Assembly (NCBI GenBank): GCA_021234155.1
Contig: JAJEKV010000100.1
Location: forward strand, 906,116-970,115
Direction: 5' to 3'
Origin: Isoetes taiwanensis
Lineage: Eukaryota > Streptophyta > Lycopodiopsida > Isoetales > Isoetaceae
Length of the DNA: 64,000 nucleotides
Positions 2,954 to 60,749 of the stretch are shown here, piece by piece. How positions within the stretch are numbered: position 1 is the first letter of the stretch; every line of letters begins with the position of its first letter. The translations under genes and the position numbers were made by a program. Under the pieces are notes generated by a model. That model made no database searches, had not been told where the DNA came from, and was given only the letters and a program-made list of their open reading frames with translations.

Positions 2954-3200
2954 ATGACATATCTTATACACTTGTAACATATATATGACATATGATTTAT
3001 ATTATGACATATGTCATATATTAAAGATATATAATGAGATATATGACGCTTGTAATATATATATATATATATATATGACATATCTTATACACTTGTAACA
3101 TGACATATGATCTATATTATGACATATGTCATATATTAAAGATATATAATGCTTGTAATATATATATGACATATCTCATACACTTGTGTATATATATATA
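2954..3200. repeat. AT-rich tandem repeat, unit about 121 bp
   Basis: Two nearly full units and a partial third unit start near 2954, 3075 and 3166. Each holds the phrase ATGACATATCTTATACACTTG and a palindromic ATATGACATATGTCATAT core. A (TA)n run of about 20 bases lies between units 1 and 2. The array is non-coding. Confidence 0.75.
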
Positions 3201-3210
3201 TATTCAAAAC

Positions 3211-3458
3211 TTTCTGGTGTTCTCGGGATTAGTAGAGCGGAAGTTTGCCATTTGGCGGGACTTCTTGGGTGTTGTAGATGGTGATGGTCGGTTTGTACAG
3301 CAGTAGAGTTGTAGTTTTTCTGTGAGTTTATTGTGGAGTGTTGAGGTATCGCTGTCTCTTTGGGGTAGTTCTCCTTCCTCCTCACTTGCTTTGTAACATT
3401 ACCATCTTTTAATACGTTGATGACACAGTTCTTCAAAAAAAAAAAAAAAAAAAAAAAA
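3211..3458 (+). mobile_element. possible truncated retroposon (LINE-type) 3' tail
   Basis: About 220 bp of G/T-rich sequence ends in TTTGTAACAT, then a TTTTAATACG-type stretch, and finally 24 uninterrupted A residues (3435-3458). Plant L1 LINE 3' ends often look like this. No reverse-transcriptase frame remains and I could not find a clear target duplication. A processed pseudogene is the alternative. It lies about 90 bp upstream of the TATA box of the oxidase gene. Confidence 0.35.
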
Positions 3459-3545
3459 GTAAGCATATTAAAATAACTATTGGAAAACAATAAAAATATG
3501 GACTCTTCACATGTTGGGTTGAATTTTTACCACATAGCCCAACTC

Positions 3546-3553
3546 TATATAAA
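3546..3553 (+). promoter_or_regulatory. TATA box of the oxidase-like gene
   Basis: TATATAAA lies about 60 bp before the predicted start codon at 3610. That would place the start of transcription near 3576-3585 and leave a short leader. No competing ATG occurs between that point and 3610. Confidence 0.55.
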
Positions 3554-3609
3554 CAAAGCAGATTGGATTCCATCTTGTAAGAAGTCTCTAGCTCTTAGAT
3601 TTGTAATTA

Positions 3610-6600
3610 ATGGCCCCAAAGGTCTTAGTAATAGGAGGCGGTGTTATTGGCTTAACTACAGCATGGGTCATGTTAGAGAAAGGGTTTGATGTCACCGTTG
3701 TTGCAAAAGAGTATGTAGGAGGTGAAAAACAATTGACATCTGAAATTGCAGGGGCTCTTTGGGAATGGCCACCAGTAGTTTGTGGTTAGTAACTATAGTA
3801 TATAGTGAGTTTACTTTACTGTTAATCAGTGATCAACTTTGCAACGTTGCCCACCCTTAAAATGCCCCGTGACCCTTCCAAATAAGGGAATTTTTTTATA
3901 AGATATTATTGGTTTTTAATTAATAATAATATTTTAGTTTTTATTATTCTATTATTAATGTACAGTATATACACTCTTAGTCTATATTGATGTAAATCCA
4001 AAGATATGGGTTTTTATGTATCCCAAAAAATAGAAAGCAAAACTTTGCAAATTGCAATTAACCAAAGAAAATCGTATCTTTAATTCATTAATGCATGTGG
4101 GCGGAAAAGCAACGGACGGACTAGCTGGGCGGGAACTGGGAGGGAGGATCAGGAGAGGAAGAGGAGAAATCATAGAGGAAAAGAAACGAATGCAATGGAA
4201 AGATTACAAATTACAAATTTAGAATGCTCGATTCGATGCTCACTGTCCTGATTTCGATTCATTGCTAGCAACACAGCACTGGTCTGGTACGTTTCTGTAA
4301 CAAATCCGTTTCATGTAAAGTTTCTGTAAAGTTTCTGTAAATCCATTTCTGTAACGTTTCATGTCAATCACGTTTCATGTCAATCACGCAGCCATAACCC
4401 ACAAATCCGGCAGGCATAGCTCACAAATCCGGTCTGTCCTCCAAATATTCTGTTGTAGATTTGCTGCAAGTCATCAATTTGTTTTATACAGTAGCAGCAG
4501 ATCATGCATTGCCAATCGTAAGTGCTTACAGCAGGAAATAGATAAAAACGTATTGACAACCAAAATCAAACAGGACTCATCTGGAGCAGAACGAATTTAT
4601 CTGGAGCAGAACCTTTATCTGGAGCAGAACGAATTTATCTGGAGCATAATCTTTATCTGGAGCAGAACGAATTTATCTGGAGCAGAACAAATTTATCTAT
4701 CGCTGATCTATCTGAATCTGATAGAAGAGATTAGAGCAAGCAATTCTTTGTGAAGACAGACAAGGTAAGTAAATTTTATCTTGTAATTTATTTCACATTA
4801 CAGTTTCAGAATTTATTCAGAAATTGCCTTTATCCTTTATTCAGAAATTGCCATGGCTCCCCGTTTGGGACGTCCAATGAAGGACACGAGGCAAACAACA
4901 ATCCATGCCATGTTCTCTATCTCCAATACTAGAGCTAATACTAGCACATCAGAAGGTTTTATTGATTTGAATGAGCCTGTAACTGATGAGAATGACCAAA
5001 GAGTGGAGGATATGATGGAAGCTGTGATAGGGGACGATTTAGAAGAGACCGATGATAGGTTGGACAGAGAGATAGGTGCAGGCAGCAAAAAGAAACAAAA
5101 GAAAAAGAAGAGAAAATTTCGGGAAGAATGGAAAGTAAAACATCCATGGGCTTATGGCATTATTGATCCATTTGGTATTGAAAGAGTGAAATGTGCTTGG
5201 TGTATTGAAAATAAGATGAGTAATGCATTTTCTTTGCAAGGGAGTAGCACAGTTCAAAAGCAAGCTCTTGAGATCCATGAGAGATCTAAAAGTCATAAAA
5301 AAGTTACGGAAATTATGGCAGATAAAAGGAAAAAGGTGCATGTACCTTTGAAGTTTGATGAAATGACTCAAATTGAGCATAAGAGAGTGGTAAAAGTTAT
5401 GCAATTGATGTACTATGTTGCAACAAGGGACCAGCCCTTAGAAGAATATGCTTCTTTGTGCCATCTCCTCAAGTTTTCAGATACACCTGATATGCCACTT
5501 AGCAATGAGTATTCTGCTTACACCAACACAAAAATGCCGAGTAAGGAATTCTTGCATGCTATGAAAACGGTCTATTTCCAGAAACTCATTAGCGAAGTAT
5601 GTGATAGCCCATACTTCTCTTTGTTAATAGATGAGTCTACAGATTGCACTTTGACTAGTTACATGATTGTATACGTCACATACATTATGGATAGAGGCAA
5701 TGGGCATGTTGCTACAAGGTTTCTTGGATTGATTGAGGTTTCTGATTGCGATGCATCACATTTACATGTTGCATTATGTGATTTTTTACTTGATTTGGGA
5801 CTTGAGAAAGAAAAAATGATAGGTTTGGCAACGGATGGTGCTGCAGTAATGACAGGAATACATAACGGGGTTGCCGCAAGATTTAAGGAAGAAGTTCCCT
5901 CACTAATTTCAGTGCATTGCATTGCACACAAAGAAGCTTTGGCCGTTAAAGATGCTTTAAAGGAATTTCGCATATGTGATTTGGTAGAAAAAGTTGCGCG
6001 CAAGATAAAGAAATGGGTTGGTAAATCACATATTCGACATTCTTCTGTTAAGTCTCTTGCTTTGGCATATAACTTGAAGCCATTGGAGTTGTTACGAATT
6101 CATGATGTGCGTTGGCTTTCTCGAGGGCAAGTTATATCACGCATGGTTACTTTGATGCCCGTATTGATGAACATTTGGTCTAAGGAAAATGGTGAGCTTT
6201 TTCTAGCTTTCACTAGTCTTAAAGTGCAATTTTTTATTCACTTGCTTGCGGATGTGCTCTTTCATTGTAATATCTTGAATGAGTTATTTCAAAGTCGTAT
6301 TGTTGATATCTCCCAAATTGGGACGGATATTGCTATCACCAAGAAGCAACTTACAAGCCATTTCTTGGTTGGTGAATTTGGCTCGAAGGCAAAGCATTTT
6401 TCCTCGTTTCAAGAAATGGCTAGGCATGGCTATCTTGCTTACAAAGATGTGGATGGAATGATTCATCATCAAGGCCTTCATCTTGGTCCAATTTCTTCTA
6501 AGGATGACACATTGCATTTATCTACATGGGCATCTTGCGTTGCGGAAGGTAAGTCTTTTGTAAGAAAAATCATTGATTCCCTTGACAAAAGATTTAGTGA

Positions 6601-8491
6601 TCTTGATTTATTTGATGCATCAAAGATATTCTCACCTCGTGACTATGTAGTGGATGATGATGAAGAGCATGCAGCCACATGTGAGAAATGGATTGAGGTA
6701 CTCATTGCTAAGTTCCATGGAAAGATAGATGCCAACAAATGTAGGCTTGAGTATATAGATTTTACTATAAGGTTGGGTGGCCGTTGTCCAAGAAAATCTT
6801 TACATGAGGCATGGATGCTAAGTGGTTTTGAGATGGATTTTAGTCAAACGTATCCTGAAATGAAGAAGTTGTGGCAAATGACTTTGGTAATTCCTGCATC
6901 TACAGTGGAATGTGAAAGAGGGTTTTCTAAAATGAACAACATCAAGGATGAGGATAGAAGCAGGTTGAACTTCAAAAGCTTAAGCATGTTGATGTTCATG
7001 TCACTAAATGCTCCTAAAGAGATGAAGGATGTAGATTGGTTATCCATCTACAAAGAGTGGGAGAATGAAAAAGAGAGGCGCATCAAAGAACTTTAATTAC
7101 TTGCATAGGGCTTTGTAATGCCTTAACTATGGTATTATAAGCTAGGTTTTTTTGTAAGTATAAGGTAAGATTTTATTTAAAGTATTTGCCATTTGAAGTG
7201 TTTTTTTTGCTGAAATTGTATATTGAATTATAGAAAAAAGGGTAATCTGATAGAGCTTAAAAAAAGGGTGTTTTAAAATTTACCATGCACAAATAAGGGC
7301 ATTCTGAAATGTGCCCTTAAAAAAAAATAGCAGGCCCGCCCTTATAAGTTGATCACTGCTGTTAATACATTATATAATCTTGTGTTCTCTTTATGTAGGA
7401 TCACATACCAACCAAACTTCACTTGCTAGATCAAAGGATTGGTGCCAAGTTGCATATAAAAGATTTAAGAGTATGGTAATGCTTGAAATTGGAATAAGCA
7501 TGAAGATGTCAAATTTTTTCTTCAAGGAGCGCTTAGAGAATAATGATTACCAATATAAGAAGATGAGGGAGATTGAAGCGAATGTGGAAGGGTTCAGAAG
7601 AGATGCCAAAATTATTGAGGAGCTTAACATCAACCTTGATTATGGGCTAATAGATGCTTATCAACATCTTGCTCCTATAATTGACACTCCAAAATATATG
7701 CGTTTCTTAACTTCACATCTTCGGGATAAGTGTGACCTCCTAATTCACACAATAGAAGGGGACCTCTTGGACATTGAGTATCAGTTGCTAAATGAATTTA
7801 ATGCTGACATCATTGTGAATTGTGCAGGTTTAGGTAGTATAGAACTAGCTAACGATGATACCATGGCACCTCTTAGAGGTGCATTGGTTCGAGTTATTAA
7901 TGGAAAAAATGCTCCCATTGTTAAAGAGGCAATGTCAATTTCCCTAGATGGCAGGGAGGCAGCTGCTGATATGGTCTATATCATTCCTAGAAATGATGAT
8001 ACCCTCCTACTTGGGGGGCTTGCTGAATTTGGCGAGTGGAACACTGATATAAACCTGGTAATTGTTGTCCTCTCTTTCTATAACCAACATATTTCGTATT
8101 ACTCTCTTCTAAGACAGTTTTATCCTTGTTTTTCTAGGACAATTATCCCCTCGTTAAAGATATGTTTAAAAGGTGTCAACATTTTTATCCACCTTTACAC
8201 AACGCATGTCTGGATGAGTCATGCCCGGTTGTCGTAGGCCTACGACCATATCGTCTGAACAATGTCTGTCTTGAGAGAGAAAGTAGACGCCCAAAAAGTC
8301 GTATCATCCACAATTATGGCCATGGGGGTTCTGGTAATATAAATAGCTTATCATATGAATCGATATATGCAGGTTAACATTATGCATTTTATGTAGGGTT
8401 CTCCTTCTCATTTGGTTGTGCCGAAGATGTTGCACAAATTGCGATTTCAATCATGAAAGAAACAGAAAATGAAAAACGTGCACACCTTTAA
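3610..8491 (+). CDS. D-amino-acid oxidase-like FAD flavoenzyme (4 exons)
   Basis: Exons 3610-3784, 7399-8057, 8138-8333 and 8397-8491 join in frame to 1125 nt (374 residues plus TAA), a normal length for the DAO/DASPO family. All three introns are GT..AG. The N-terminus carries a Rossmann FAD-binding motif (GGGVIG after VLVI). Exon 2 holds a VNCAGLGS segment, a RGAL segment and VYIIPRNDDTLLLGG, which contains the family's conserved active-site Tyr. Exon 3 has VGLRPYR with the substrate-carboxylate Arg, then IHNYGHGGSG. Exon 4 ends the helix after GHGG. The family oxidises D-amino acids to 2-oxo acids, ammonia and hydrogen peroxide, usually in peroxisomes. The final residues (AHL) are not a typical PTS1. 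The residue equivalent to human Tyr224 appears to be Ala, so substrate choice may differ. Intron 1 contains a complete hAT transposon; without it the intron would be 74 bp, like introns 2 (80 bp) and 3 (63 bp). Substrate preference is not inferable. Confidence 0.9.
3819..3826. repeat. hAT target-site duplication, left
   Basis: CTGTTAAT directly precedes the left terminal repeat and matches the right copy at 7359-7366 in all eight bases. Confidence 0.95.
4288..4390. repeat. GTTTCTGTAA / GTTTCATGT repeats in hAT leader
   Basis: GTTTCTGTAA-type and GTTTCATGTCAATCAC-type words recur several times in about 100 bp, the latter twice in direct tandem near 4357-4388. Short repeated words near hAT ends are often transposase binding sites. 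That role is inferred here. Confidence 0.6.
4578..4700. repeat. ATCTGGAGCAGAAC repeats in hAT leader
   Basis: Six copies of a 17-20-bp unit built on ATCTGGAGCAGAAC lie head to tail, alternating GAATTT and CTTT spacers. They fall inside the transposon, 150-270 bp before the transposase start. They could bind transposase or shape its promoter; no direct evidence separates these. Confidence 0.8.
4853..7096 (+). CDS. hAT-family transposase, intact frame
   Basis: The 747-residue protein would cut and rejoin the ends of the surrounding element in the nucleus. A Lys-rich run near residues 79-88 is a likely nuclear localisation signal. Residues 114-148 form a BED/TTF-type zinc finger (Cys114, Cys117, His142, His148). 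The RNase-H-like core shows LLIDESTD with the first catalytic Asp at 260, ATDGAAV with the second Asp at 328, and the hAT-specific CxxH pair (Cys356, His359). The C-terminal dimerisation region contains IPASTVECERGFS, where Glu688 is the likely third catalytic residue. The start sits in a strong context (GCCATGGC). The C-terminal form recalls ZNF862/C17orf113-like hATs more than classic Ac. No stops, frameshifts or missing key residues are visible. The nearest possible upstream intron would be only 39 bp, so I do not predict one. Confidence 0.92.
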   Translation: MAPRLGRPMKDTRQTTIHAMFSISNTRANTSTSEGFIDLNEPVTDENDQRVEDMMEAVIGDDLEETDDRLDREIGAGSKKKQKKKKRKFREEWKVKHPWAYGIIDPFGIERVKCAWCIENKMSNAFSLQGSSTVQKQALEIHERSKSHKKVTEIMADKRKKVHVPLKFDEMTQIEHKRVVKVMQLMYYVATRDQPLEEYASLCHLLKFSDTPDMPLSNEYSAYTNTKMPSKEFLHAMKTVYFQKLISEVCDSPYFSLLIDESTDCTLTSYMIVYVTYIMDRGNGHVATRFLGLIEVSDCDASHLHVALCDFLLDLGLEKEKMIGLATDGAAVMTGIHNGVAARFKEEVPSLISVHCIAHKEALAVKDALKEFRICDLVEKVARKIKKWVGKSHIRHSSVKSLALAYNLKPLELLRIHDVRWLSRGQVISRMVTLMPVLMNIWSKENGELFLAFTSLKVQFFIHLLADVLFHCNILNELFQSRIVDISQIGTDIAITKKQLTSHFLVGEFGSKAKHFSSFQEMARHGYLAYKDVDGMIHHQGLHLGPISSKDDTLHLSTWASCVAEGKSFVRKIIDSLDKRFSDLDLFDASKIFSPRDYVVDDDEEHAATCEKWIEVLIAKFHGKIDANKCRLEYIDFTIRLGGRCPRKSLHEAWMLSGFEMDFSQTYPEMKKLWQMTLVIPASTVECERGFSKMNNIKDEDRSRLNFKSLSMLMFMSLNAPKEMKDVDWLSIYKEWENEKERRIKEL
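7359..7366. repeat. hAT target-site duplication, right
   Basis: CTGTTAAT directly follows the right terminal repeat and is identical to 3819-3826. Confidence 0.95.
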
Positions 8492-8499
8492 TTGTGTAA

Positions 8500-8700
8500 G
8501 TCCATCACTTCTATCTACAAGGGTTTTTCCTCCCACATGGGGGGTTTTTTCATCCCAGTGGTAGAGACACATTGTACAGGGTTTCTGTTCAATTCTTTTG
8601 TGTTTGGAAACTTTCGCTATATTGTATCACCGTCTCATAGGCCAGTTGGCCTCCGTGGACGTTAAAATATACTTCCTTCCGTCCTTTCTTCTATCTGTCT
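8500..8700 (+). repeat. retroposon-like repeat with CTTCC tail
   Basis: This stretch follows the oxidase stop codon. It shares an ordered set of words with 32600-32745 and 33500-33652: a G-run followed by TTTTT, a TTTGTGTTTGG-type word, then GGCCTCCGTGGACG before a TTCC-rich tail. The shared 3' part and simple tail suggest a SINE-like family. It may also serve as 3' UTR of the gene. Confidence 0.4.
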
Positions 8701-10998: not shown

Positions 10999-11516
10999 TG
11001 TTAGGATTTGAATAGAATATACTCAATAAACTGATTACAAGCTTTACAATCCAATGATCTTAGTGAAAAGCCAAGAAGTGGTCACTAATTTTCACTTGAT
11101 CATATACAAGTCAATAATGACTATACAATCAGGCGCTCAAACAATCTCCTGCTCCATATCTCGACCTGCAAGCCCCCCCTGTCTATCCATTACTCCAGTA
11201 TTTATCTCCATATTTACCTTCCAATCTGGGTGCATCCACTTGTCAAATTGTGCATAGAAAGTTCTCCAACTTGCCTAAAAATCAGGAGTAGATAGACTTG
11301 CCTTCCTTAAAATTCGGTCCTAGTTGACTTTGACTTTGACTGGTCAACGCTAACCCTAAGTGGCGGGCAGGGGGGTGTCTCAGGCGTTTTAGCGAGCCCA
11401 AAGAACACCCGGGTAGGGGGTGCCCGCCACCTTTGACTTTGACTTTGACTTTGACCTACTGCCACTGCTTCTCATAGGTCTTCCCATAGCTTTAAATAAC
11501 ATGACACCATTTAACA
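10999..11516 (-). repeat. copia 3' LTR (518 bp)
   Basis: On the plus strand it begins TGTTAGGATTTG and ends TTAACA. It lacks an 11-base stretch (CCTTCTCATAT) present in the other LTR, and reads CCCAAAGAACACC where the partner reads CCCAGCAACACC. Confidence 0.93.
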
Positions 11517-14500
11517 CTTTCCCTTCATGTTATTTTTCCTTGCAACTGATCATTTGTCTCAGTCTACTAAATTTTAACTCTGTCAAAGCCTTAGTCAAAA
11601 TATCCGCTAAAGCGCATATCGGTTTGAACATATTCTTGACTCAATGATTCTTTTTTCACTAGGTCCCTTATGAAATGCATCTCCAAATTTCGATATGCTT
11701 GGTCCTTTCATGTTGTATTGGATTTTTTCGTCATTCCTATGCAATCAGACTGTCGTAAAAACAATTTCAAAGGTTTTCTTTGTTCTATACCTATTTCTTG
11801 TAGCAACCTTTCACTCCATACTATTTCCTTAGCGGAAGAGTTGCGTTTGCATATTCTCGCTCTCAGATGAGATGAAGTGCTATTGCCTTTTGCTTCCTGC
11901 ATTTCCATGAAATGGGCCCTCCTCCTAGCATGCAAATAATTCACGAAGTTGATTTTCTTTCATCGTGGTCTCCACCCCAATCGAATCACAAGATGATAGC
12001 AACTCCATGTTATCGTAATTAAATTGTATCCCATAATCTACGGTTTCTTTCAAATATCTTAGAACCCTCTTACGCCTTTTGCTAAGTGCTCTTTTCCAAA
12101 GTTATGACGGTATCTACTTAGAATATTATTTGCAAATGAAATATCGGGTCTTGTGTGACTAGATAAATATAGTAAGCGTACCAACTAACTCTTGATATGG
12201 AATGTTTTCCATTTTCGACTGCCATCATTCAAATTCAAGGTTAGTTTGTTACACGGAACCATGGGAGTTTTTACCACCTTACAATCTTCCATGTTGAATC
12301 TTTTGAGCATCCCCGCAATATTCTCACCTTGTGTCAAAGTAAGAACACGTTTGTCTCTATCTCAAGACTTCAATTCCTAAAAACTTTTAAGTTCACCCAA
12401 AGTCTGTCATTTTAAAACCGATTCTTGAGAATGTCTTTGCATTTTTGTAGCACATCAAGATTGCTACTAACCATCACATTGTCATCCACATATAATGCAA
12501 TATAGCATACTTCATTCCCATCCTTAAATAAATAAATATTTCCATCATCCTTTAGTTTTATAAAACCTTGTTCCCTTAAATATGAGTCCATGCAAATATA
12601 CCATTGTCTTGGTATTTGTCTCGACCCATATCTGACCTTTTTAAGTTTCCACACTTTATCTTTCCCTTGCTCAAAGCCAGGGAGGTTGCATCATAAAGAT
12701 ATCCTCCTCCAAGTCAGCATTCAAGAAAAAGAAAGTAGAGACATCCATATGATGTACCTCAAAATTCTTAGCATTTGCTATCGCTAACAACATCCCCGAT
12801 ACTTGTCATTTTTACTATAGGGAAAAAAGTTTCCTCATAGTCAATTCCTTCTTTTCGTGTGTATCCCTGTGCTACTAATCGAGCTTTATACTTAATTGAG
12901 TGAGGTTGTACTCCTCGCTTGATTTTAAATATCCATTTACACCCCCAATCGCATGTCTACCTTCGTGCAAGTTTACAAGCTCATACGCCCCTCGTTCTCT
13001 TAAATGCATCCAAAGCTCATCATTCATGGCAATTTTCCATTCTTTTTTGCATCAACCACACTTATAGCTTCTCTATAAGATTTTGGTACTTCAGTATCCA
13101 GCAAGGCAAGGATTTCAATAAGGTTTACACCTGCTGCTTCACTTTGTATTCTTCTACTTCTACCTGTGTTATCTCTTCCAAATCTTTCATGATCAACATA
13201 AGCCTCTTGTTGCAAGATTCTGCATTTGTAGTTCTTCTACCGACCTTTATCGTGTTACCTCCTTTTCTATAGTATCACCTACACTATCCGGCGACTTCAA
13301 AGCACCAACTTGTTGAGAGGAGAGTTTATTGGCATCCCGCTCATCATCATCATCAATAAAAGTTCGTATTCAATTTTCGAACTTCCTTTTCTTTAGGGTT
13401 AACAGAGAAAAACTTTATGTTTTTATAAGATTGAGATTAGTCAAATGTCACATCTCTACCGATCAAAATCTTTTTTCCTTTGTGGATCAAATAACTGTAT
13501 GCCTTGGATTCTTGATCATATCCTACAAGAAAGGCTATTCTTGCTTTCGATCATCCGCCTTTAACCTTTGTTGCTTTGGTACATGAACAAAGCTTACACA
13601 ACCAAAACCCCGGTGTCTCATAGTTTGGTTTAACTCGACCATAGCTCATCCGGGGTCATTCCACCGACCGCTCTATTTGGTAACATATTCTGAACTTTCC
13701 TCTGCTTTGTTAAGACAGACTTCCTCCCACAAATAATTGGGTAGTCCTGTGTGTTTTATCATAGCTCGGACAAAGCATTTAAAATTGTCCTATTTTTCCT
13801 TTCAGCAATGCCATTCGTTTGTGGAGAAAAACTACATGTAAACCGTCTCTTTATTCCCCTTACTTTGCAAAACTTGATAAACTCGGATGACATGAACTCT
13901 CCACCACGGTCGGATCGAATACATTTCACTTTTTTTTCCCTGTTTCTAATTCCACTTCAAGTAAAGCAAACATTTTATAAGCCTCAAAGGCTTGATCTTT
14001 AGTTCTAAGACACATGCATGTTGTCTTTCTACTAAAGTCATCAATAAAGGTAATGAAATACCTTTTTCCCGATATTCCTCTAACATTAAGAGGACCACGA
14101 GAGATCTGTATGCACTAGCTCCAATACCCTTTAGTTTTTCTCTTTGCCCTTTTAAAAGGCAATCTTGCATGTTTTCCTAGCATGCAACCTAGGCAGATTC
14201 TTGGCTCATCAACTTCATTTTTGCTTTGATTATTTTTTGTTTAATCATAGTATCTATGGTGCTATGATTAACATGACATAACCCTCGATGCCAAGTGTCC
14301 ATATCGGAATCATAAATGTAATTAACTGAGGGCAAACAACCACTATCCAAAGCAAACAGATTACCAAATCTTCTTCCAAGAAATTTGATCTCATTATTCA
14401 AAAGCACTTTACATTGATACTTGTCAAAAACAACGATGTAATCCATGTCTACTAAGCGGTAAATGTAAAATTAAATTTCTGACTAGTGAAGGTACACACA

Positions 14501-15746
14501 AAACATCCTTCAAGTTTACTGCTCTCCCTTGAAGGTCATACAATTCTAACATTCCCGTGCATTGAACATCTTGCAACTTCCCATTTCCTAACTTGATATG
14601 CTTAATTCTTCCTTCCTTTTCCTCCTTGAATAATTTGGTTTGAACCGGTCACGGATTTTTTACGCTCCACTATCTAATATTAACATTTCATCATCATTAT
14701 TAGATTTTTCTTTTGAAACAACCAAAATGTCATAATTACTTACCTCAGCATCTTCATCCTCTTCACTTGATTCTTCTTCAATATCTTGCACCAAATTTAC
14801 AGTAGACCTTTGTGTGTCAGGATTCCTTCCTCGACCTCTAGAATAATTTCTCCCTCTACTTGGTCTGCCTCTATTCATTTTGTCGCTTGAGCACTTGTTT
14901 GCAAAGTGACCTCTGCCTCCACAGCTTAAAGCACTCAACTTCTTTCAATTTAGGACAATTTATCTTTAAATGCCCTTTTACTTTTGCAAATTGAAAACAA
15001 GGACCTATTTCACTCTTATCTTTAGCACTTTTTCCGAAAAACTTTGCCTTGCCCTTACCTCGCATACAACACATTATTTTCAATGTCATCATCATACAAT
15101 ACCTTATTTTGTTCAAACTCGTTTGAATCATTTCTTTCTTTGCCTCTCGGTTTTGGCCACATTCCTAATAAGAGTTGACAACTGCTTGTTCCCCTCAATT
15201 TGCTCTTGCCACATGCAATAATTTTTCTTTGTTCATCAAGAACACCCCAAAGACCTTCTAAAGTCCGCCACAATGTTATCAAACTTAGAGAAAAACTTTG
15301 GTAAGTCATCACCTTCTTTTACCCTTAGCATCCTAAGTGCTTTATCAAGAACATCAACTGAGATGACGTTTTTCCTCATAGTTTTTGAGCAGAACTTCCA
15401 AATATCACTAGGGGACTTTCCCTTATCTTCAAAGAAAATTGAAGCCCCAACTTTGCTGGTCAAAATACCATATGCTTCACTAAGTTTAACAACTTCATCC
15501 TTACCACTTTTACTTGAGTCTACTTCACCGGACTCTTTGAAGTTTCACCGGACTTTCCGGAGGTAGAACTTCTTCTTGCGACCACAGAGATCGCATCCCC
15601 ACTTGAACTAGTTCCTTGAACTAATTCCCGAGCCCTTCATTTTCAAGAACATTTTTATTTGTTCCTTCCAAATCTGGAAAAAGCTTTGGTCCCCTTCATC
15701 TTAATTGCAATAGAGTTCAACAACCCTGCTCCAAACCTGCTTGACA
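11517..15746 (-). pseudogene. copia gag-pol polyprotein, frame-broken
   Basis: Reading minus-strand pieces from high to low coordinates, the copia polyprotein is recognisable but split over several frames. A gag body lies at 15236-15463. A CCHC zinc-knuckle region lies at 14880-15010, with CGGRGHFANKC intact and a first knuckle whose second Cys reads Phe. Protease begins at LDSGA (about 14660). The GAG-pre-integrase WHRGLCHVN lies at 14189-14446, and an integrase C-terminal landmark QTNGIAERKNRTI near 13770-13830. Reverse transcriptase has LYVDDNVMV at 12412-12654, and RNase H remnants resembling SSHTRPDISFANN lie near 12120-12180. The domain order and size are normal, so the breaks are small indels rather than deletions. 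Some may be sequence errors, given the near-identical LTRs. As written it cannot make a functional polyprotein. Confidence 0.85.
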
Positions 15747-15761
15747 TGGCTCTGATACCAC

Positions 15762-16288
15762 TGTTAGGATTTGAATAGAATATACTCAATAAACTGATTA
15801 CAAGCTTTACAATCCAATGATCTTAGTGAAAAGCCAAGAAGTGGTCACTAATTTTCACTTGATCATATACAAGTCAATAATGACTATACAATCAGGCGCT
15901 CAAACAATCTCCTGCTCCATATCTCGACCTGCAAGCCCCCCCTGTCTATCCATTACTCCAGTATTTATCTCCATATTTACCTTCCAATCTGGGTGCATCC
16001 ACTTGTCAAATTGTGCATCCTTCTCATATAGAAAGTTCTCCAACTTGCCTAAAATTCAGGAGTAGATAGACTTGCCTTCCTTAAAATTCGGTCCTAGTTG
16101 ACTTTGACTTTGACTGGTCAACGCTAACCCTAAGTGGCGGGCAGGGGGTGTCTGTGCGTTTCTAGCGAGCCCAGCAACACCCGGGTAGGGGGTGCCCGCC
16201 ACCTTTGACTTTGACTTTGACTTTGACCTACTGCCACTGCTTCTCATAGGTCTTCCCATAGCTTTGAATAACATGACACCATTTAACA
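15762..16288 (-). repeat. copia 5' LTR (527 bp)
   Basis: It adjoins the tRNA primer site and matches the other LTR along its length apart from a few indels and substitutions. It contains a run of TTTGAC words near 16204-16227. Confidence 0.93.
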
Positions 16289-50170: not shown

Positions 50171-52139
50171 TGCTCAGAAGTTAATTTAAAAACCTATCTT
50201 TGATAGTGTCTCAAATTATCTGCATACTAACATTTGGGTAAGAATCGTGAGGCAGATCAGAAAAAATACAATACTGGCTGCATAACATCTCCAGATAGGG
50301 CACAAAGACATGGCCCTTGGTAAGCAATAAGGATACACCACGTAACATTGTGGAAAAAATGGTACAGGTGCATTTCTGAGCATGGGCAGCATAGCCTAGT
50401 TGGTGGTCTACCCTACTCAGCACAAGCATAGCGGGCAAGACGGAATAACACGATGAGATGTGAAAATAAGGGCATGACCCAGTAAGGTTTGTTTTTAGAA
50501 ATAATTGAGCTTTGTTTTTAGAAACATTTGAGGAGACACGTAGTATTAAGATGTTATACGGTATGTGGGTGGCATCTCTAGTCTTAATGATGGAGCCAAG
50601 TTCTGGGCTAAGGAGAATTAAAATATCGTAAAGTCTTATCTAGACTAATCTGCACCTCCCCTATAAAGGAATATGGCTGCCTGCCAAAGTTAATGCCTAA
50701 GGGCATAAATACAATGCCTATGGGCATAAATACAAGGTTGAACACATGCTGGACACCAAGAAGATGGAAATTAAACAAGCAAGGGTGGACATTATAAAAA
50801 CGCAGAGGTGACCACAAGCAAGGTATAGTTGGCAAAATATTTTCAGGATGGCAAAGGCATGGCCCTACATGAGTAATAGATTAAAGCATTTTCACATTAA
50901 TGGCTATGGCTAGGAGACATAAAAGAAGATGAACGTACTGCACGAGATGCATATGGGAAGGACTAACACATAGCATATGTTCAAGATACTGTTCTGGAAT
51001 GTTATGCCCAGCAGGTTGCCTAGTCTACCAAACAGTAGCATGTTGGTAAAGCTTGAATAACATGAGCAGTTGCAACATAGGTGCATATGATCTACTGCAT
51101 TTGAGTATATTCTGCATAACATCTCCAGATAGCACACAAGGACATGACCCTAAAGAAGTAATAAGAGCAAAGATAGCATACAAGAAGTTAACCGACATGT
51201 AACTTAGGTTCGTGATATCGTTTTGCAATGTTAAGCCTAGATGGCGGTCTGCTCTACTCAGCACAAGCACAGGCGGCAAGAATGAACAACACGGGGAGAT
51301 GTAAAAACAAGGGCAGTGCCCATAAAATGTTATCTTTAGCAATAACTGATAAACCATGTAGCATTAAAATGTTTAAGTGTATAGGTTCAGCATCTCCAGT
51401 CTTAAATTACTGGTGGGCTTGCTTTCTGGGCTAAGGAGAATCACAATACTGTAGGGTCTCCTCTAGACTAATATGCACTTTCCCCATAAGGGAATATGGT
51501 TTTCCGTTAAAATTAATGCTTATGGGCATAATTGCAAAGTTTGACACAAGCTGTGCACCAGAAGGATGGAAATTAAACAAGCAAAGGTGGACAATTTCTT
51601 TTTAAAAAATATGTAGAGGTGACTAGAAGCCAGATATAAGGGGCATAACATTTTCGGATTGCATAAACCATGAAAAATGCTGGTTTTTTTTACATACTAA
51701 CATTTGGGTAACATTCGTGAGATAGAAAAAAAAAAAATACAATCTTGGATGTTTAGGGCTCGTGGTATCTCTAGGGACGAATCTCCCTGAGGCCCTAAGT
51801 TCGATAATGGCGGCAAATGGTCGCAAGTACTCATCCGATATGGTATCATGGTAAAGAATGCCGCATCGTCATTGGGCATGGACAAGTCGGCCTAGCAGAT
51901 GCCGCAGTGATCATGCAAATCGGCTCCATCTCGAACCGGTACTTCTTCATCCCGCTAAATTTACATGGCTTTCTATTTTAGCTAAAGCAAATCATGGAGC
52001 CGACATGGCCACGATGCATGAGACCACATGGTCAAAAAGCGTAGAGGTCGCTTACCGCAGCAAACATTTTAATCTTCATCAAACACATCCGAAACCGCCT
52101 TGGTTCTTGGAGAGCGCCTTTGGTTCTTGCCGTTCAAAT

Positions 52140-53240
52140 GGCCAAGAGCAAATTAACAAGGCCCGGCGATAGGTCTGGATCAAAGGGGCCGGAATTGATC
52201 TACAAGCCCTTTGCAAGAAAGAGGAGGAAGCCTTTGCTCAACCTAGCAAAATGTTTCTAATGAGCATTGTAGAGAAGCATCGGCTGGCAAAAAGCCCCAA
52301 CACAAGGAAGGGTGGAGATGTCGCCTAATATATCACGGGCAACTAGCAGCAGAGTGGAGGATACACGTTATCAAGCACATGGAGCAAGAGCACGAAATAC
52401 AACAAGTGCAGAACAATGAGGACGAAATGGATTTGGAGCTTCAACTGAATCAGGTTCTTTATGAATTAAAAATGTTATTCGGATTTTACAGAGGCAACTG
52501 GTTATGCTTTGCCTAAATAACAATAAATTAACCCTTAAATCTAGGCTGGTCACATGGTGTATAATCTGTAATAGGGCAAAGCAGCAAGTAAATTATATGC
52601 TGAACATGGAGTAAATGCAGAAGAATAGATGTAAACTTACGAATCTTGAATATCTGGTTGTAGAACAGGTATATCTAAATGGTAAGGTTTATCTGCATTT
52701 AGTATGCATAGGCTTGGCCTGAAAGGATAGCCATAGGTGGAGGCAACTCTGTGCCATACGACCAGCAATGGCACAAGAAAGCTGATGGGGCAATGCGCTT
52801 GTACTGTGGCTCATATGAACCGACCTTGAGTTAACAGGAATCTGATATGTCACAACAACCAAATAGCGTGCAATCTGCAACAGAGTTATGATTCGTATTA
52901 CAATAGAATTACAGGACTCCGTTTCCCCTTTGGAATTCAGATCTGGTCCACGTAGGAGACCATAGGCTCCTATGCTGAAATTTAACTGTTATTCTGACTA
53001 TGATATAGCTGAGTATTATGTGCTGAATTCTTTATTTGAGCTATCTTAAATACTGAATTATTTGGATTATATTATGAAGTATATAATTTGGTGAAGGGCG
53101 TTAAGCCGTGCTTGACTATTGCTTACCTGCTAATCCCTCTCTTGGTTACCCATTAGGCTAACACTTGACTGGTTGGATTGCAGGTAACCGGTCTTGCACC
53201 TCCAGATTCCTTGCATTTTTGGATGTTTTGGATATTTTGG
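52140..53240 (+). pseudogene. unknown array gene, unit A: KLTRPEV and VTG exons
   Basis: From 52140 the sequence aligns with the open intronless copy at 49630-50011, but the frame is broken: small indels near 52168 and a TAA at 52326-52328 following KGGDVA. The exon ends CTGAATCAG at 52453. The next segment starts at 53184 after TTGCAG and reads VTGLAPPDSLHF. Visible words include GAGIDLQALCKKEEEAFAQP and MEQEHEIQQVQNNEDEMDLE. No family recognised. The same exon pair lies at about 56608-57700 in unit B. Confidence 0.5.
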
Positions 53241-54154
53241 ATATTATGGATGCAAAGGAAACTATAAAACCAGTAAAAGACTGAAGTATGTGGACACGGC
53301 AGCATTTTTTGACGATTTCTATGAAATCTTGTTGTTAATTGCATCTGACTGAAGGTAACTTTTACAATATTACAATTTCTTTTCAAGTATATGAACCAGG
53401 CTATCCATTTCTGGATCAGCCCGAGTTGACTTTTGGAAAACCGTTAAGCTAATGATGTAAGTTTTTTCTGCTGTAAGCATTTATCAAGTTGTTTGGTATC
53501 TCTTGGTCCTAAGAACTATATGACAGATATAGCAAAATTGAAAGGAAAAGTTAACTGGTACAATAAGCAGCCTATGGGGTCATGTTACTGTGGATTAGAA
53601 CAGTTTGGACTAGTAAAGAATGTGATAATCTAAGGAAATATAAATGAATTGGAAGTAATGTGCGTAGTGAAACTGTGGAGATCACTTGAATTAATATAAA
53701 CATGAAAGAAAAAATCACATAATGATAGAGCATTATACCTACGGATGACTTGTGTAGTTAAGTATGTAGTAGGCCTTTTGTTGGGCCTATAGTGCATGGT
53801 CCTCACATAGATGATCTGTTGTATGAAAGGATGTATAAAACATTGTCAAGGTAGAAAAGGCTATGCATTGAAAATAGCAATAAATGTTGGATCTCAAGGC
53901 TATCTCATTTTATGGTCGAGAACCGATAATTTCTAAAGCCCATGGTTTAGAAAGCCAAGTCTTTGGTCAAGGCTTTGGCAAGTTTATATATTCCACGACT
54001 TCAAGACACCCGGTTTAACTAGTGTGAGTCTTGGAGATCCAACTCTAGTAATATGTCTGCACTGATGAACATGTGGAACAGCATGACTTGTTGTTGCAGA
54101 TTTGATGCATGTGTTTGATAATATACTAAGCATTCTTTCTAGCAGGAAGCAAAT

Positions 54155-54376
54155 ATGGAGAACAACTATGATATCTTACAGGAAGCTATAGATCAACAAG
54201 ATACTCTTGGTCGTAGCTGGATTGATAGTATATGGCAGTGCAAAACAAGGACTAATGGCGTATTGCAGAAAAGGATGGTCATTGGAGGCATGCACATTCT
54301 AGGTAATGCCTACCTTAAAAAAGTTTTTTTCAAAAAAGCATATGCTAAAATAAGTGAGCAATCTGTGTATGACTAG
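54155..54376 (+). CDS. hypothetical exon MENNYD, unit A
   Basis: A 73-codon frame begins just after TTTCTAGCAG. It reads MENNYDILQEAIDQQDTLGR, SWIDSIWQCKTRTNG and VIGGMHILGNAYLKKVFFKK before TAG. A GTAATG directly after GGCATGCACATTCTAG could be a splice donor, in which case the exon would end at about 54302. The identical frame in unit B (58631-58852) is duplication, not independent support. No family recognised. Confidence 0.35.
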   Translation: MENNYDILQEAIDQQDTLGRSWIDSIWQCKTRTNGVLQKRMVIGGMHILGNAYLKKVFFKKAYAKISEQSVYD

Positions 54377-56383
54377 ACTACAAAAGTACGGCCTTTGGCC
54401 AAACATAGCAAGCCCTCGGGCGTAACATTAAAAAGCAAATATGCCACTGATATGCAGTATTGGCGGCTATGGTTTCTTAACATTAGTATAGTCGGCAGGG
54501 GGATCCCTATGAGTATAGGGTCCTCCTGTCCCTATACTCAGCAGGTATTTCACTGCCTTCCGGTTGGAGGTAGGGTTTAGCTTATATATATACATATATA
54601 TATATATATCAAATTAACGGATGGTTTTGCCCAGTACAAGGCTCAGAAGTTAATTTAAAAACCTATCTTTGATAGTGTCTCAAATTATCTGCATACTAAC
54701 ATTTGGGTAAGAATCGTGAGGCAGATCAGAAAAAATACAATACTGGCTGCATAACATCTCCAGATAGGGCACAAAGACATGGCCCTTGGTAAGCAATAAG
54801 GATACACCACGTAACATTGTGGAAAAAATGGTACAGGTGCATTTTCGAAAGCATGGGGGCAAAGATAGCCTAGTTGGTGGTCTACCCTACTCAGCACAAG
54901 CATAGCGGGCAAGACGGAATAACATGACGAGATGTGAAAATAAGGGCATGACCCAGTAAGGTTTGTTTTTAGAAATAATTGAGCTTTGTTTTTAGAAACA
55001 TTTGAGGAGACACGTAGTATTAAGATGTTATACGGTATGTGGGTGGCATCTCTAGTCTTAATGATGGAGCCAAGTTCTGGGCTAAGGAGAATTAAAATAT
55101 CGTAAAGTCTTATCTAGACTAATCTGCACCTCCCCTATAAAGAAATATGGCTGTCACAAAGTTAATGCCTAAGGGCATAAATACAATGCCTATGGGCATA
55201 AATACAAGGTTGAACACATTTGGACACCAAGAAGATGGAAATTAAACAAGCAAGGGTGGACATTATAAAAACGCAGAGGTGACCACAAGCAAGGTATAGT
55301 TGGCAAAATATTTTCAGGATGGCAAAGGCATGGCCCTACATGAGTAATAGATTAAAGCATTTTCACATTTATGGCTATGGCTAGGAGACATAAAAGAAGA
55401 TGAACGTACTGCACGAGATGCATATGGGAAGGACTAACACATAGCATATGTTCAAGATACTGTTCTGGAATGTTATGCCCAGCAGGTTGCCTAGTCTACC
55501 AAACAGTAGCATGTTGGTAAAGCTTGAATAACATGAGCAGTTGCAACATAGGTGCATATGATCTACTGCATTTGAGTATATTTCGCGATAACATCTCCGT
55601 GATAGCACACAAGGACATGACCCTAAAGAAGTAATAAGAGCAGCATAGCATACAGTAAGCACCGACATGTAACTTAGGTTCGTGATATCGTTTTGCAATG
55701 TTAAGCCTAGATGGCGGTCTGCTCTACTCAGCACAAGCACAGGCGGCAAGAATGAACAACACGGGGAGATGTAAAAACAAGGGCAGTGCCCATAAAATGT
55801 TATCTTTAGCAATAACTGATAAACCATGTAGCATTAAAATGTTTAAGTGTATAGGTTCAAAGATCTCCAGTCTTAAATTCTTGGTGGGCTTGCTTTTACG
55901 GGCTAAGGAGAATCACAATACTGTAGGGTCTCCTCTAGACTAATATGCACTTTCCCCATAAGGGAATATGGTTTTCCGTTAAAATTAATGCTTATGGGCA
56001 TAATTGCAAAGTTTGACACAAGCTGTGCACCAGAAGGATGGAAATTAAACAAGCAAAGGTGGACAATTTCTTTTAAAAAAAAAATATGTAGAGGTGACTA
56101 GAAGCCGGATATAAGGGGCATAACATTTTTAGGATTGCATAAACCATGAAAAAATGCTGGTTTTTTTACATACTAACATTTGGGTAACATTCGTGAGATA
56201 GAACGTAAAAAAATACAATCATTGGATGTTTAGGGCTCGTGTATCTCTAGGACGAATCTCCCAGAGGCCCTAAGTTCGATAATGGCGGCAAATGGTCGCA
56301 AGTACTCATCCGATATGGTATCATGGTAAAGAATCTTTGATCGTCATTGGGCATGGACAAGTCGGCCTAGCAGATGCCGCATC

Positions 56384-57680
56384 ATGCAAATCGGCTCCAT
56401 CTCGAACCTGGTACTTCTTCATCCCGCTAAATTTACATGGCTTTCTATTTTAGCTAAAGCAAATCATGGAGCCGACATGGCCACGATGCATGAGACCACA
56501 TGGTCAAAAGCAGAGAGGTCGCTTCACTGGCGACATTTTAATCTTGTCAAACACATCTGGAAACCGCCTTGGTTCTTGAGAGCGCCTTGGTTCTTGCCGT
56601 TCAAATGGCCAAGAGCAAATTAACAAGGCCCGAAGTGATAGGTCTGATCAAAGGGGCCGGAATTGATCTACAAGCCCTTTGCAAGAAAGAGGAGGAAGCC
56701 TTTGCTCAACCTAGCAAAATGTTTCTAATGAGCATTGTAGAGAAGCATCGGTGGCAAAAAAGCCCCAACACAAGGAAGGGTGGAGATGTCGCCTAATATA
56801 TCACGAGGCAACTAGCAAAGCAGAGTGGAGGATACACAGTTATCAAGCACATGGAGCAAGAGCACGAAATACAACAAGTGCAGAACAATGAGGACGAAAT
56901 GGATTTGGAGCTTCAACTGAATCAGGTTCTTTATGAATTAAAAATGTTATTCGGATTTTACAGAGGCAACTGGTTATGCTTTGCCTAAATAACAATAAAT
57001 TAACCCTTAAATCTAGGCTGGTCACATGGTGTATAATCTGTAATAGGGCAAAGCAGCAAGTAAATTATATGCTGAACATGGAGTAAATGCAGAAGAATAG
57101 ATGTAAACTTACGAATCTTGAATATCTGGTTGTAGAACAGGTATATCTAAATGGTAAGGTTTATCTGCATTTAGTATGCATAGGCTTGGCCTGAAAGGAT
57201 AGCCATAGGTGGAGGCAACTCTGTGCCATACGACCAGCAATGGCACAAGAAAGCTGATGGGGCAATGCGCTTGTCTTTGTGGGCTCATATGAACCGACCT
57301 TGAGTTAACGGGGAATCGATATGTCACAACAACCAAATAGCGTGCAATGCAATGAGAGTTATGATTAAGTATTACAATAGAATTACAGGACTCCGTTTCC
57401 CCTTTGGAATTCAGATCTGGTCCACGTAGGAGACCATAGGCTCCTATGCTGAAATTTAACTGTTATTCTGACTATGATATAGCTGAGTATTATGTGCTGA
57501 ATTCTTTATTTGAGCTATCTTAAATACTGAATTATTTGGATTATATTATGAAGTATATAATTTGGTGAAGGGCGTTAAGCCGTGCTTGACTATTGCTTAC
57601 CTGCTAATCCCTCTCTTGGTTACCCATTAGGCTAACACTTGACTGGTTGGATTGCAGGTAACCGGTCTTGCACCTCCAGA
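56384..57680 (+). pseudogene. unknown array gene, unit B: KLTRPEV and VTG exons
   Basis: The frame is clean across MAKSKLTRPEVIGLIKGAGI, LCKKEEEAFAQPSKMFLMSI and VEKHRWQKSPNTRKGGDVA, then meets the same TAA as unit A. The following bases continue the similarity (QSGGYTVIKHMEQEHEI) to CTGAATCAG. The shared stop shows it predates the A/B duplication or marks a true end of the protein. Confidence 0.5.
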
Positions 57681-58630
57681 TTCCTTGCATTTTTGGATGT
57701 TTTGGATATTTTGGATATTATGGATGCAAAGGAAACTATAAAACCAAGAAAAGATGAAGTATGTGGACACTTAGAAGATTTTTTGACGATTTCTATGAAA
57801 TCTTGTTGTTAATTGCATCTGACTGAAGGTAACTTTTACAATATTACAATTTCTTTTCAAGTATATGAACCAGGCTATCCATTTCTGGATCAGCCCGAGT
57901 TGACTTTTGGAAAACCGTTAAGCTAATGATGTAAGTTTTTTCTGCTGTAAGCATTTATCAAGTTGTTTGGTATCTCTTGGTCCTAAGAACTATATGACAG
58001 ATATAGCAAAATTGAAAGGAAAAGTTAACTGGTACAATAAGCAGCCTATGGGGTCATGTTACTGTGGATTAGAACAGTTTGGACTAGTAAAGAATGTGAT
58101 AATCTAAGGAAATATAAATGAATTGGAAGTAATGTGCGTAGTGAAACTGTGGAGATCACTTGAATTAATATAAACATGAAAGAAAAAATCACATAATGAT
58201 AGAGCATTATACCTACGGATGACTTGTGTAGTTAAGTATGTAGTAGGCCTTTTGTTGGGCCTATAGTGCATGGTCCTCACATAGATGATCTGTTGTATGA
58301 AAGGATGTATAAAACATTGTCAAGGTAGAAAAGGCTATGCATTGAAAATAGCAATAAATGTTGGATCTCAAGGCTATCTCAAACCTTATGGTCGAAGAAC
58401 CGATAATTTCTAAAGCCCATGGTTTAGAAAGCCAAGTCTTTGGTCAAGGCTTTGGCAAGTTTATATATTCCCTGACTTCAGTACACCAGTTTAACTAGTG
58501 TGAGTCTTGGAGATCCAACTCTAGTAATATGTCTGCACTGATGAACATGTGGAACAGCATGACTTGTTGTTGCAGATTTGATGCATGTGTTTGATAATAT
58601 ACTAAGCATTCTTTCTAGCAGGAAGCAAAT

Positions 58631-58852
58631 ATGGAGAACAACTATGATATCTTACAGGAAGCTATAGATCAACAAGATACTCTTGGTCGTAGCTGGATTG
58701 ATAGTATATGGCAGTGCAAAACAAGGACTAATGGCGTATTGCAGAAAAGGATGGTCATTGGAGGCATGCACATTCTAGGTAATGCCTACCTTAAAAAAGT
58801 TTTTTTCAAAAAAGCATATGCTAAAATAAGTGAGCAATCTGTGTATGACTAG
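58631..58852 (+). CDS. hypothetical exon MENNYD, unit B
   Basis: The translation is identical to that at 54155-54376. The same acceptor and possible internal donor are present. See unit A for what can be said of it. Confidence 0.35.
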   Translation: MENNYDILQEAIDQQDTLGRSWIDSIWQCKTRTNGVLQKRMVIGGMHILGNAYLKKVFFKKAYAKISEQSVYD

Positions 58853-59112
58853 ACTACAAAAGTACGGCCTTTGGCCAAACATAGCAAGCCCTCGGTAACA
58901 TTAAAAGCAAATATGCCAGCGATATGCGATATTGGCGGCTATGGTTTCTTAACATTAGTATAGTCGGCAGGGGGATCCCTATGAGTATAGGGTCCTCCTG
59001 TCCCTATACTCAGCAGGTATTTCACTGCCTTCCGGTTGGAGGTAGGGTTTAGCTTATATATATACATATATATATATATATCAAATTAACGGATGGTTTT
59101 GCCCAGTACAAG

Positions 59113-60749
59113 GCTCGGTTAATTTAAAACCTATCTTTGATAGTGTCTCAAATTATCCGCATACTAACATTTGGGTAAGAATCGTGGAGGCGGATCGGAA
59201 AAATACAACTTGGCCGCATAACATCTCGGATAGGGCACAAAGACATGGCCCTTGGTAAGCAATAAGGATACACCACGTAACATTGTGGAAAAATGGTGTG
59301 TGCATTTTCGAGCATGGGCAAGATAGCCTAGTTGGTGGTCTACCCTACTCAAAGACAAGCATAGCGGGCAAGACGGAATAACATGACGAGATGTGAAAAT
59401 AAGGGCATGACCCAAGAAGGTTTGTTTTAGAAATAATTGAGCTTTGTTTTAGAAACATTTGAGGAGACACGTAGTATTAAGATGTTATACGGTATGTGGG
59501 TGGCATCTCTAGTCTTAATGATGGAGCCAAGTTCTGGGCTAAGGAGAATTAAAATATCGTAAAGTCTTATCTAGACTAATCTGCACCTCCCCTATAAAGA
59601 AATATGGCTGCCTGCCAAAGTTAATGCCTAAGGGCATAAATACAATGCCTATGGGCATAAATACAAGGTTGAACACATCTTTGGACACCAAGAAGATGGA
59701 AATTAAACAAGCAAGGGTGGACATTATAAAAACGCAGAGGTGACCACAAGCAAGGTATAGTTGGCAAAATATTTTCAGGATGGCAAAGGCATGGCCCTAC
59801 ATGAGTAATAGATTAAAGCATTTTCACATTTATGGCTATGGCTAGGAGACATAAAAGAAGATGAACGTACTGCACGAGATGCATATGGGAAGGACTAACA
59901 CATAGCATATGTTCAAGATAATTGCTCGAATGTTATGCCCAAAGAGGTTGCCTAGTCTACCAAACAAGAGCATGTTGGTAAAGCTTGAATAACATGAGAG
60001 GTTGCAACATAGGTGCATATGATCTATCGCATTTGAGTATATTCTCGCATAACATCTCCGGATAGCACACAAGGACATGACCCTAAAGAAGTAATAAGAG
60101 CAAAGATAGCATACAAGAGAAGTTAACCGACATGTAACTTAGGTTCGTGATATCGTTTTTGCAATGTTAAGCCTAGATGGCGGTCCGCTCTACTCAAAGA
60201 CAAGCACAAAGTGGCAAGAATGAACAACACGGGGAGATGTAAAACAAGGGCGGTGCCCATAAAATGTTATCTTTAGCAATAACCGATAAACCATGTAGCA
60301 TTAAAATGTTTAAGTGTATAGGTTCAAAGATCTCCGGTCTTAAATTCTTGGTGGGCTTGTTTTTTACGGGCTAAGGAGAATCACAAATTTGTAGGGTCTC
60401 CTCTAGACTAATATGCACTTTCCCCATAAGGGAATATGGTTTTCCGTTAAAATTAATGCTTATGGGCATAATTGCAAAGTTTGACACAAGCTGTGCACCA
60501 GAAGGATGGAAATTAAACAAGCAAAGGTGGACAATTTCTTTTTAAAAAATATGTAGAGGTGACTAGAAGCCAGATATAAGGGGCATAACATTTTCGGATT
60601 GCATAAACCATGAAAAATGCTGGTTTTTTTTACATACTAACATTTGGGTAACATTCGTGAGATAGAACAGAAAAAATACAATACTGGATGTTTAGGGCTC
60701 GTGTATCTCTAGGACGAATCTCCCAGAGGCCCTAAGTTCTGATAATGGC
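59113..60749 (+). repeat. tandem unit C, truncated (about 1.6 kb)
   Basis: It matches the first 1.6 kb of units A and B up to CTAAGTTCTGATAATGGC, then jumps into dispersed repeat family 2 (CAAAGCACCATTCATTGG). It carries the heaviest load of CAG/CTG changes. Confidence 0.9.

Follow-up and report, generated by a model that had tools for sequence, protein, structure and literature searches.

A hAT transposon of 3532 bp lies in the first intron of a D-amino-acid-oxidase-like gene of Isoetes taiwanensis, in sense to the host. The insertion appears to be an ordinary one, in which the element is spliced out together with the intron and is perhaps weakened in cis; we give this reading a probability of about 0.78. 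It is a new copy of a known type of element, and its placement is likewise of a known type. The additions to the earlier account are a 116-bp loss near the 5' end of the element, a lone intact transposase open reading frame (ORF) among the scored copies, and a decayed sister locus elsewhere in the genome. All coordinates refer to the window, the whole 64,000-nucleotide stretch of DNA that was analysed, in which the host gene spans 3610-8491 on the + strand. The features are as follows.

3610..3784, +, host exon 1, with ATG at 3610
3785..7398, +, host intron 1, GT-AG, 3614 bp
3819..3826, +, left copy of the target duplication (TSD) CTGTTAAT, 8/8 match to the right copy
3827..7358, +, hAT element, 3532 bp
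3827..3839, +, 5' terminal inverted repeat (TIR) CAGTGATCAACTT, 13/13 pairing with the 3' TIR
3854..3888, +, three remaining 5' subterminal AAGGG/CCCTT motifs (3854, 3873, 3884)
3910..3911, +, deletion junction, where about 116 bp of other near copies are missing
4559..4712, +, minisatellite-like array in the element leader, spacing 20 and 38 bp
4853..7096, +, predicted transposase ORF, 747 aa, one exon
7238..7343, +, five 3' subterminal AAGGG/CCCTT motifs
7346..7358, +, 3' TIR AAGTTGATCACTG
7359..7366, +, right TSD copy CTGTTAAT
7399..8057, +, host exon 2
8138..8333, +, host exon 3
8397..8491, +, host exon 4, including the stop codon

The four host exons join into a frame of 374 residues and a stop, as the original prediction had stated. 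The joined protein matches the Pfam DAO domain (PF01266, 9.6e-30) and aligns over residues 4-366 with 8hy5_A of the PDB (5.6e-24, the best E-value among solved D-amino-acid oxidases). The domain match and the whole-protein alignment support the earlier assignment of the host to the DAO family as a D-amino-acid-oxidase-like gene. When the element and one TSD copy are removed, intron 1 shrinks to 74 bp, and introns 2 and 3 measure 80 and 63 bp. These three lengths and all coordinates had been given correctly, as had the nearly 50-fold expansion of the intron (3614/74). An alternative form of intron 3, with its donor after 8327, would be 69 bp long and would keep the frame, giving a protein of 372 aa.

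The element has the features of the hAT superfamily, namely an 8-bp TSD, short TIRs and a hAT C-terminal dimerisation domain. The 8-bp target duplication and the 13-bp perfect terminal repeats of the original prediction are both present. Across the whole window, 4458 pairs of perfect inverted ends (at least 9 bp long, separated by 100-12000 bp) have a perfect 8-bp direct repeat immediately outside them, and this element is the only pair with G/C in both end and repeat. Five mononucleotide shuffles of the window gave zero such pairs at 9 or 11 bp. The strongest proof of the element is given by independent copies outside the window, which have common ends and their own 8-bp TSDs. An Rfam scan of the window at gathering score and a tRNA scan found nothing. 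Elsewhere in the window, two overlapping stretches of 6.1 kb (50172-56286 and 54641-60749) are 96% alike and reflect a tandem unit of about 4.5 kb.

These copies come from a search of a 1.658-Gb assembly of 1110 contigs. Scoring 40 of 274 candidates, the DNA search gave at least 76 matching pieces; the protein search, in which 60 of 2087 were scored, gave at least 76 matches. Both figures are lower bounds. Fifteen loci were compared with the window, L009-L019 (11) first and then L030-L033 (4). Both ends were found within two mismatches at seven of the first 11, and they are the same ends as in the window. Three of the seven, L011, L013 and L019, have perfect 8/8 TSDs (GAGCCTTT, AATGAATG and TGCGGATC among them) and L017 has 7/8, while in L009, L012 and L016 the TSD agrees at 1, 1 and 4 of 8 positions in register. 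Among the copies with both ends are two short derivatives, 1388 and 1006 bp long. L010, L014, L015 and L018 yielded no 3' end at the two-mismatch threshold, and L030-L033 no paired ends with a TSD.

The ORF at 4853-7096 is predicted to encode a hAT transposase, and its 747 open residues agree with the original prediction. Its translation matches zf-C17orf113 (3.6e-14) and DUF4371 (1.2e-8), both above the curated cut-off, and the hAT C-terminal dimerisation domain PF05699 (2.3e-9; 37.3 bits against a cut-off of 21.4). Together with the anatomy of the insertion, these domains bear out the claim of a hAT transposon in intron 1 with its transposase in the orientation of the host. No zf-BED match is listed at E up to 1, a range in which HMMER filters drop most matches above 0.1; zf-C17orf113 is found instead. 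A zf-BED domain defines the Ac group of hAT elements and is present in Ac itself, and on this feature the transposase would not class with that group. With the PDB searched up to E 1, the only matches are four transposase sequences, among them two under the name Hermes (E 0.005-0.007, residues 664-717). In the Hermes alignment (whole-sequence E 0.005), E688 of the transposase is paired with residue 477 of chain 6dww_A; by arithmetic from the range given for 8edg_A, this residue would be Hermes 572. Hermes 572 is the catalytic Glu, which would make E688 a candidate catalytic residue; we take D260 and D328, placed by motif, to be candidates as well. Its domains and conserved positions suggest that the transposase, open end to end, may still act.

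A genome search for near-identical copies had been proposed in the original prediction. Near copies exist, and among the 60 of 2087 candidates scored, only the window copy has a family transposase open over its full length. C361 carries the next best copy, at 91% with six stops, and a copy on C39 is open over residues 1-570 only. On C919, a much more distant relative (30% identity) aligns with residues 30-743 and shows no stop there, which makes intact genes possible in related lineages. The pairwise dN/dS between the window ORF and ten other copies ranges from 0.38 to 0.97. In the derivative L015 (C1080:902500-908000), a 729-bp piece of the transposase is 99.86% identical to the window, and the 5' part is about 94% identical, gaps counted; recent shared ancestry or gene conversion could give this pattern. 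Viral contigs, as well as bacterial and archaeal genomes, gave pattern matches to the transposase, but no relative was confirmed among them. A literature search for C17orf113 together with hAT found no paper, and a search for the element found no title about it; we do not claim its absence from print.

The element is nearly complete, and its original description as complete needs qualifying because a 116-bp 5' subterminal stretch is deleted. The 116-bp segment, taken from L010, has a match of 80 bp or more at 14 of 15 loci, namely L009-L019 (L010 itself taken in) and L031-L033 (L011 covers 80 and L033 98 query positions). It is matched over 33 bp in the distant L030 and has no match in the window copy. 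Counted over 350 bp from the 5' end, AAGGG/CCCTT motifs number three in the window copy, nine in L010, L012, L015, L017 and L018, eight in L009, L013 and L019, six in L011 and five in L016, with L014 left out of the count. Six of the nine 5' motifs of L010, the sister locus, lie in the missing segment, which also carries a sense AATAAA that is present in 7/7 other copies counted. The motifs of the window element remain crowded at its ends (8 in 380 terminal bp versus 4 in 3152 internal bp), and by analogy they resemble the hexamers bound by the Ac transposase.

The loss of most 5' motifs suggests that the window copy may be mobilised less well than its relatives and may act mainly in trans. 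Weak cis ends are not thereby proven, because the number of motifs varies in TSD-bearing copies (L011, with a perfect TSD, has six) and because known elements can do with little. According to PMC3260210, wild-type Ac transposition requires the terminal 200 bp, and only three Ac hexamers are needed at the 5' end, which is the number that the window copy keeps. For Tip100, 100 bp per end suffice, as described in PMC12511174.

A second locus throws light on the age of the insertion. Indels aside, C1093:1401752-1418595 matches window positions ~2965-24449. Exon 1 is identical at the two loci (175/175) and the 5' junction of the element is common to both, so both go back to a single insertion event. 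The C1093 locus represents a segmental duplicate or, alternatively, a haplotype that has diverged strongly. The insertion is thus not fresh, being older than the separation of the two loci, whether they parted by duplication or as haplotypes. Two long flanking stretches differ at 85 of 10523 positions (~0.8%), a count that leaves out window 2965-3910 and short pieces of 7402-8506. The former region, which is rich in AT repeats, shows 91.5% identity to C1093, with 46 mismatches in 961 columns. Within the element 47 of 2796 positions differ (58 mismatches by BLAST over the same stretch), more than in the flanks (Fisher P 9e-5). This faster divergence was not used as a signal, since methylation, conversion or alignment could cause it; the counts of element substitutions between window and C1093 show no C-to-T excess.

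The C1093 locus has decayed at its 3' side. The match to the element stops at window position 6758. The remainder of the element with its 3' end, together with the right TSD and the splice acceptor, has given way to about 1.29 kb of repeats of ~425-450 bp. Exon 2 is also incomplete, with three bases missing at its start and 67 bp internally. Satellite-like repeats of ~440 bp form arrays beside and inside this sister locus (C1093:1387738-1393391 and 1405652-1406949), and the same repeat occurs on C909, ~7.2-7.7 kb upstream of the window start. An LTR retrotransposon at window 10999-16288 (LTRs of ~520 bp, 96% alike; 5-bp duplication GCTGT) is missing from the C1093 locus, which therefore shows the empty site. 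Also missing there are the 73 bp immediately 3' of the host stop codon (window 8507-8579).

The course of events that best accounts for these observations begins with a hAT cut-and-paste transposon, which jumped in sense orientation into a 74-bp first intron and duplicated CTGTTAAT, as the anatomy indicates. The host mRNA would most likely still be made through the splice from 3784 to 7399, which would remove the element with the intron and leave a working host gene. We infer that the host tolerates the insertion from its open exons and consensus splice sites. The rival view with the greatest claim to attention is that the insertion damaged the host. Transcripts would then end in the element or splice into it, leaving a young pseudogene or chimeric mRNAs of exon 1 and transposase. 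Mis-splicing or chimeric transcripts could arise, because intron 1 contains strong cryptic donors at three positions (4765, 6549, 7165) and also six cryptic acceptors, whose 13-15 pyrimidines in 20 compare with 14 in the true acceptor; moreover, the element's own gene is in sense orientation, and the sister copy on C1093 is already broken. Against damage, the four exons are open and join at GT-AG introns, although the insertion predates a split now ~0.8% diverged. The element also has no sense-strand AATAAA, ATTAAA or TATAAA, where 9.5 are expected from 200 shuffles, and five of the seven other copies counted are likewise low in these poly(A) signals (P up to 0.01). We give this little weight because nearby DNA lacks them too: 25 of 634 overlapping strand-windows, the C1093 sister element included, have zero. 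Avoidance of poly(A) signals was for the same reason rejected as the cause of tolerance and is kept as a hint. On balance we consider damage to the host somewhat unlikely.

Other readings concern the transposase and the two loci. The window copy could be the one remaining source of intact transposase in its family, protected in the intron of a transcribed gene while its 5' end decays; it would move deleted relatives in trans and hardly itself, and so be fixed in the host gene. We regard this extended account as rather improbable. That the 116-bp deletion or the C1093 copy reflects an assembly artefact or a haplotype, in place of a deletion and a duplication, seems very doubtful. Among the stretches compared, the C1093 homology is confined to window ~2965-24449, and a divergent haplotype is possible; however, the loci differ widely, by the 5.3-kb LTR element, the repeats that replace the 3' part of the element and the 67-bp loss in exon 2, and so many differences are unlike two assemblies of one sequence. 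Early domestication, in which the transposase ORF is kept as a host gene, would explain why the sole end-to-end open family copy (60/2087 scored) has lost six of nine 5' motifs as its cis end decays. Yet the TIRs and TSD are perfect, the dN/dS values against the ten copies indicate no special constraint on the window copy, the sister locus has lost the 3' part of the ORF, and a single lucky survivor accounts for the intact ORF equally well. Domestication is hardly credible on this evidence.

Among intronic hAT insertions, the locus is a tidy case, which combines open host exons, an open transposase and a sister locus that stems from the same event but has decayed differently. The loss of motifs is defined at 116 bp and can be compared with relatives that carry the segment. 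The case could help in studying the splicing of transposon-bearing introns and a possible role of genes as shelters for sources of transposase.

The flaked allele, in which Tip100 lies in an intron of CHS-D, offers a known instance of such a placement. By description, the present element resembles Tip100 (from Ipomoea purpurea) and other hATs of the Tip group, which are autonomous plant elements with an 8-bp TSD (PMC12511174 and PMC3942097). The host can be compared with rice genes whose heterochromatic introns are handled by OsIBM2, in which a transposon also lies in a promoter-proximal intron; these genes rely on OsIBM2 against premature intronic polyadenylation, as PMC7145194 describes. Ac/Ds of maize shares with the element an 8-bp TSD, short TIRs (those of Ac have 11 bp), subterminal motifs in clusters (AAACGG for Ac) and internally deleted derivatives, according to PMC3260210. 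It differs in its ends and in its motif, which is AAGGG/CCCTT in the present element, and the latter has zf-C17orf113 and DUF4371 with no zf-BED match.
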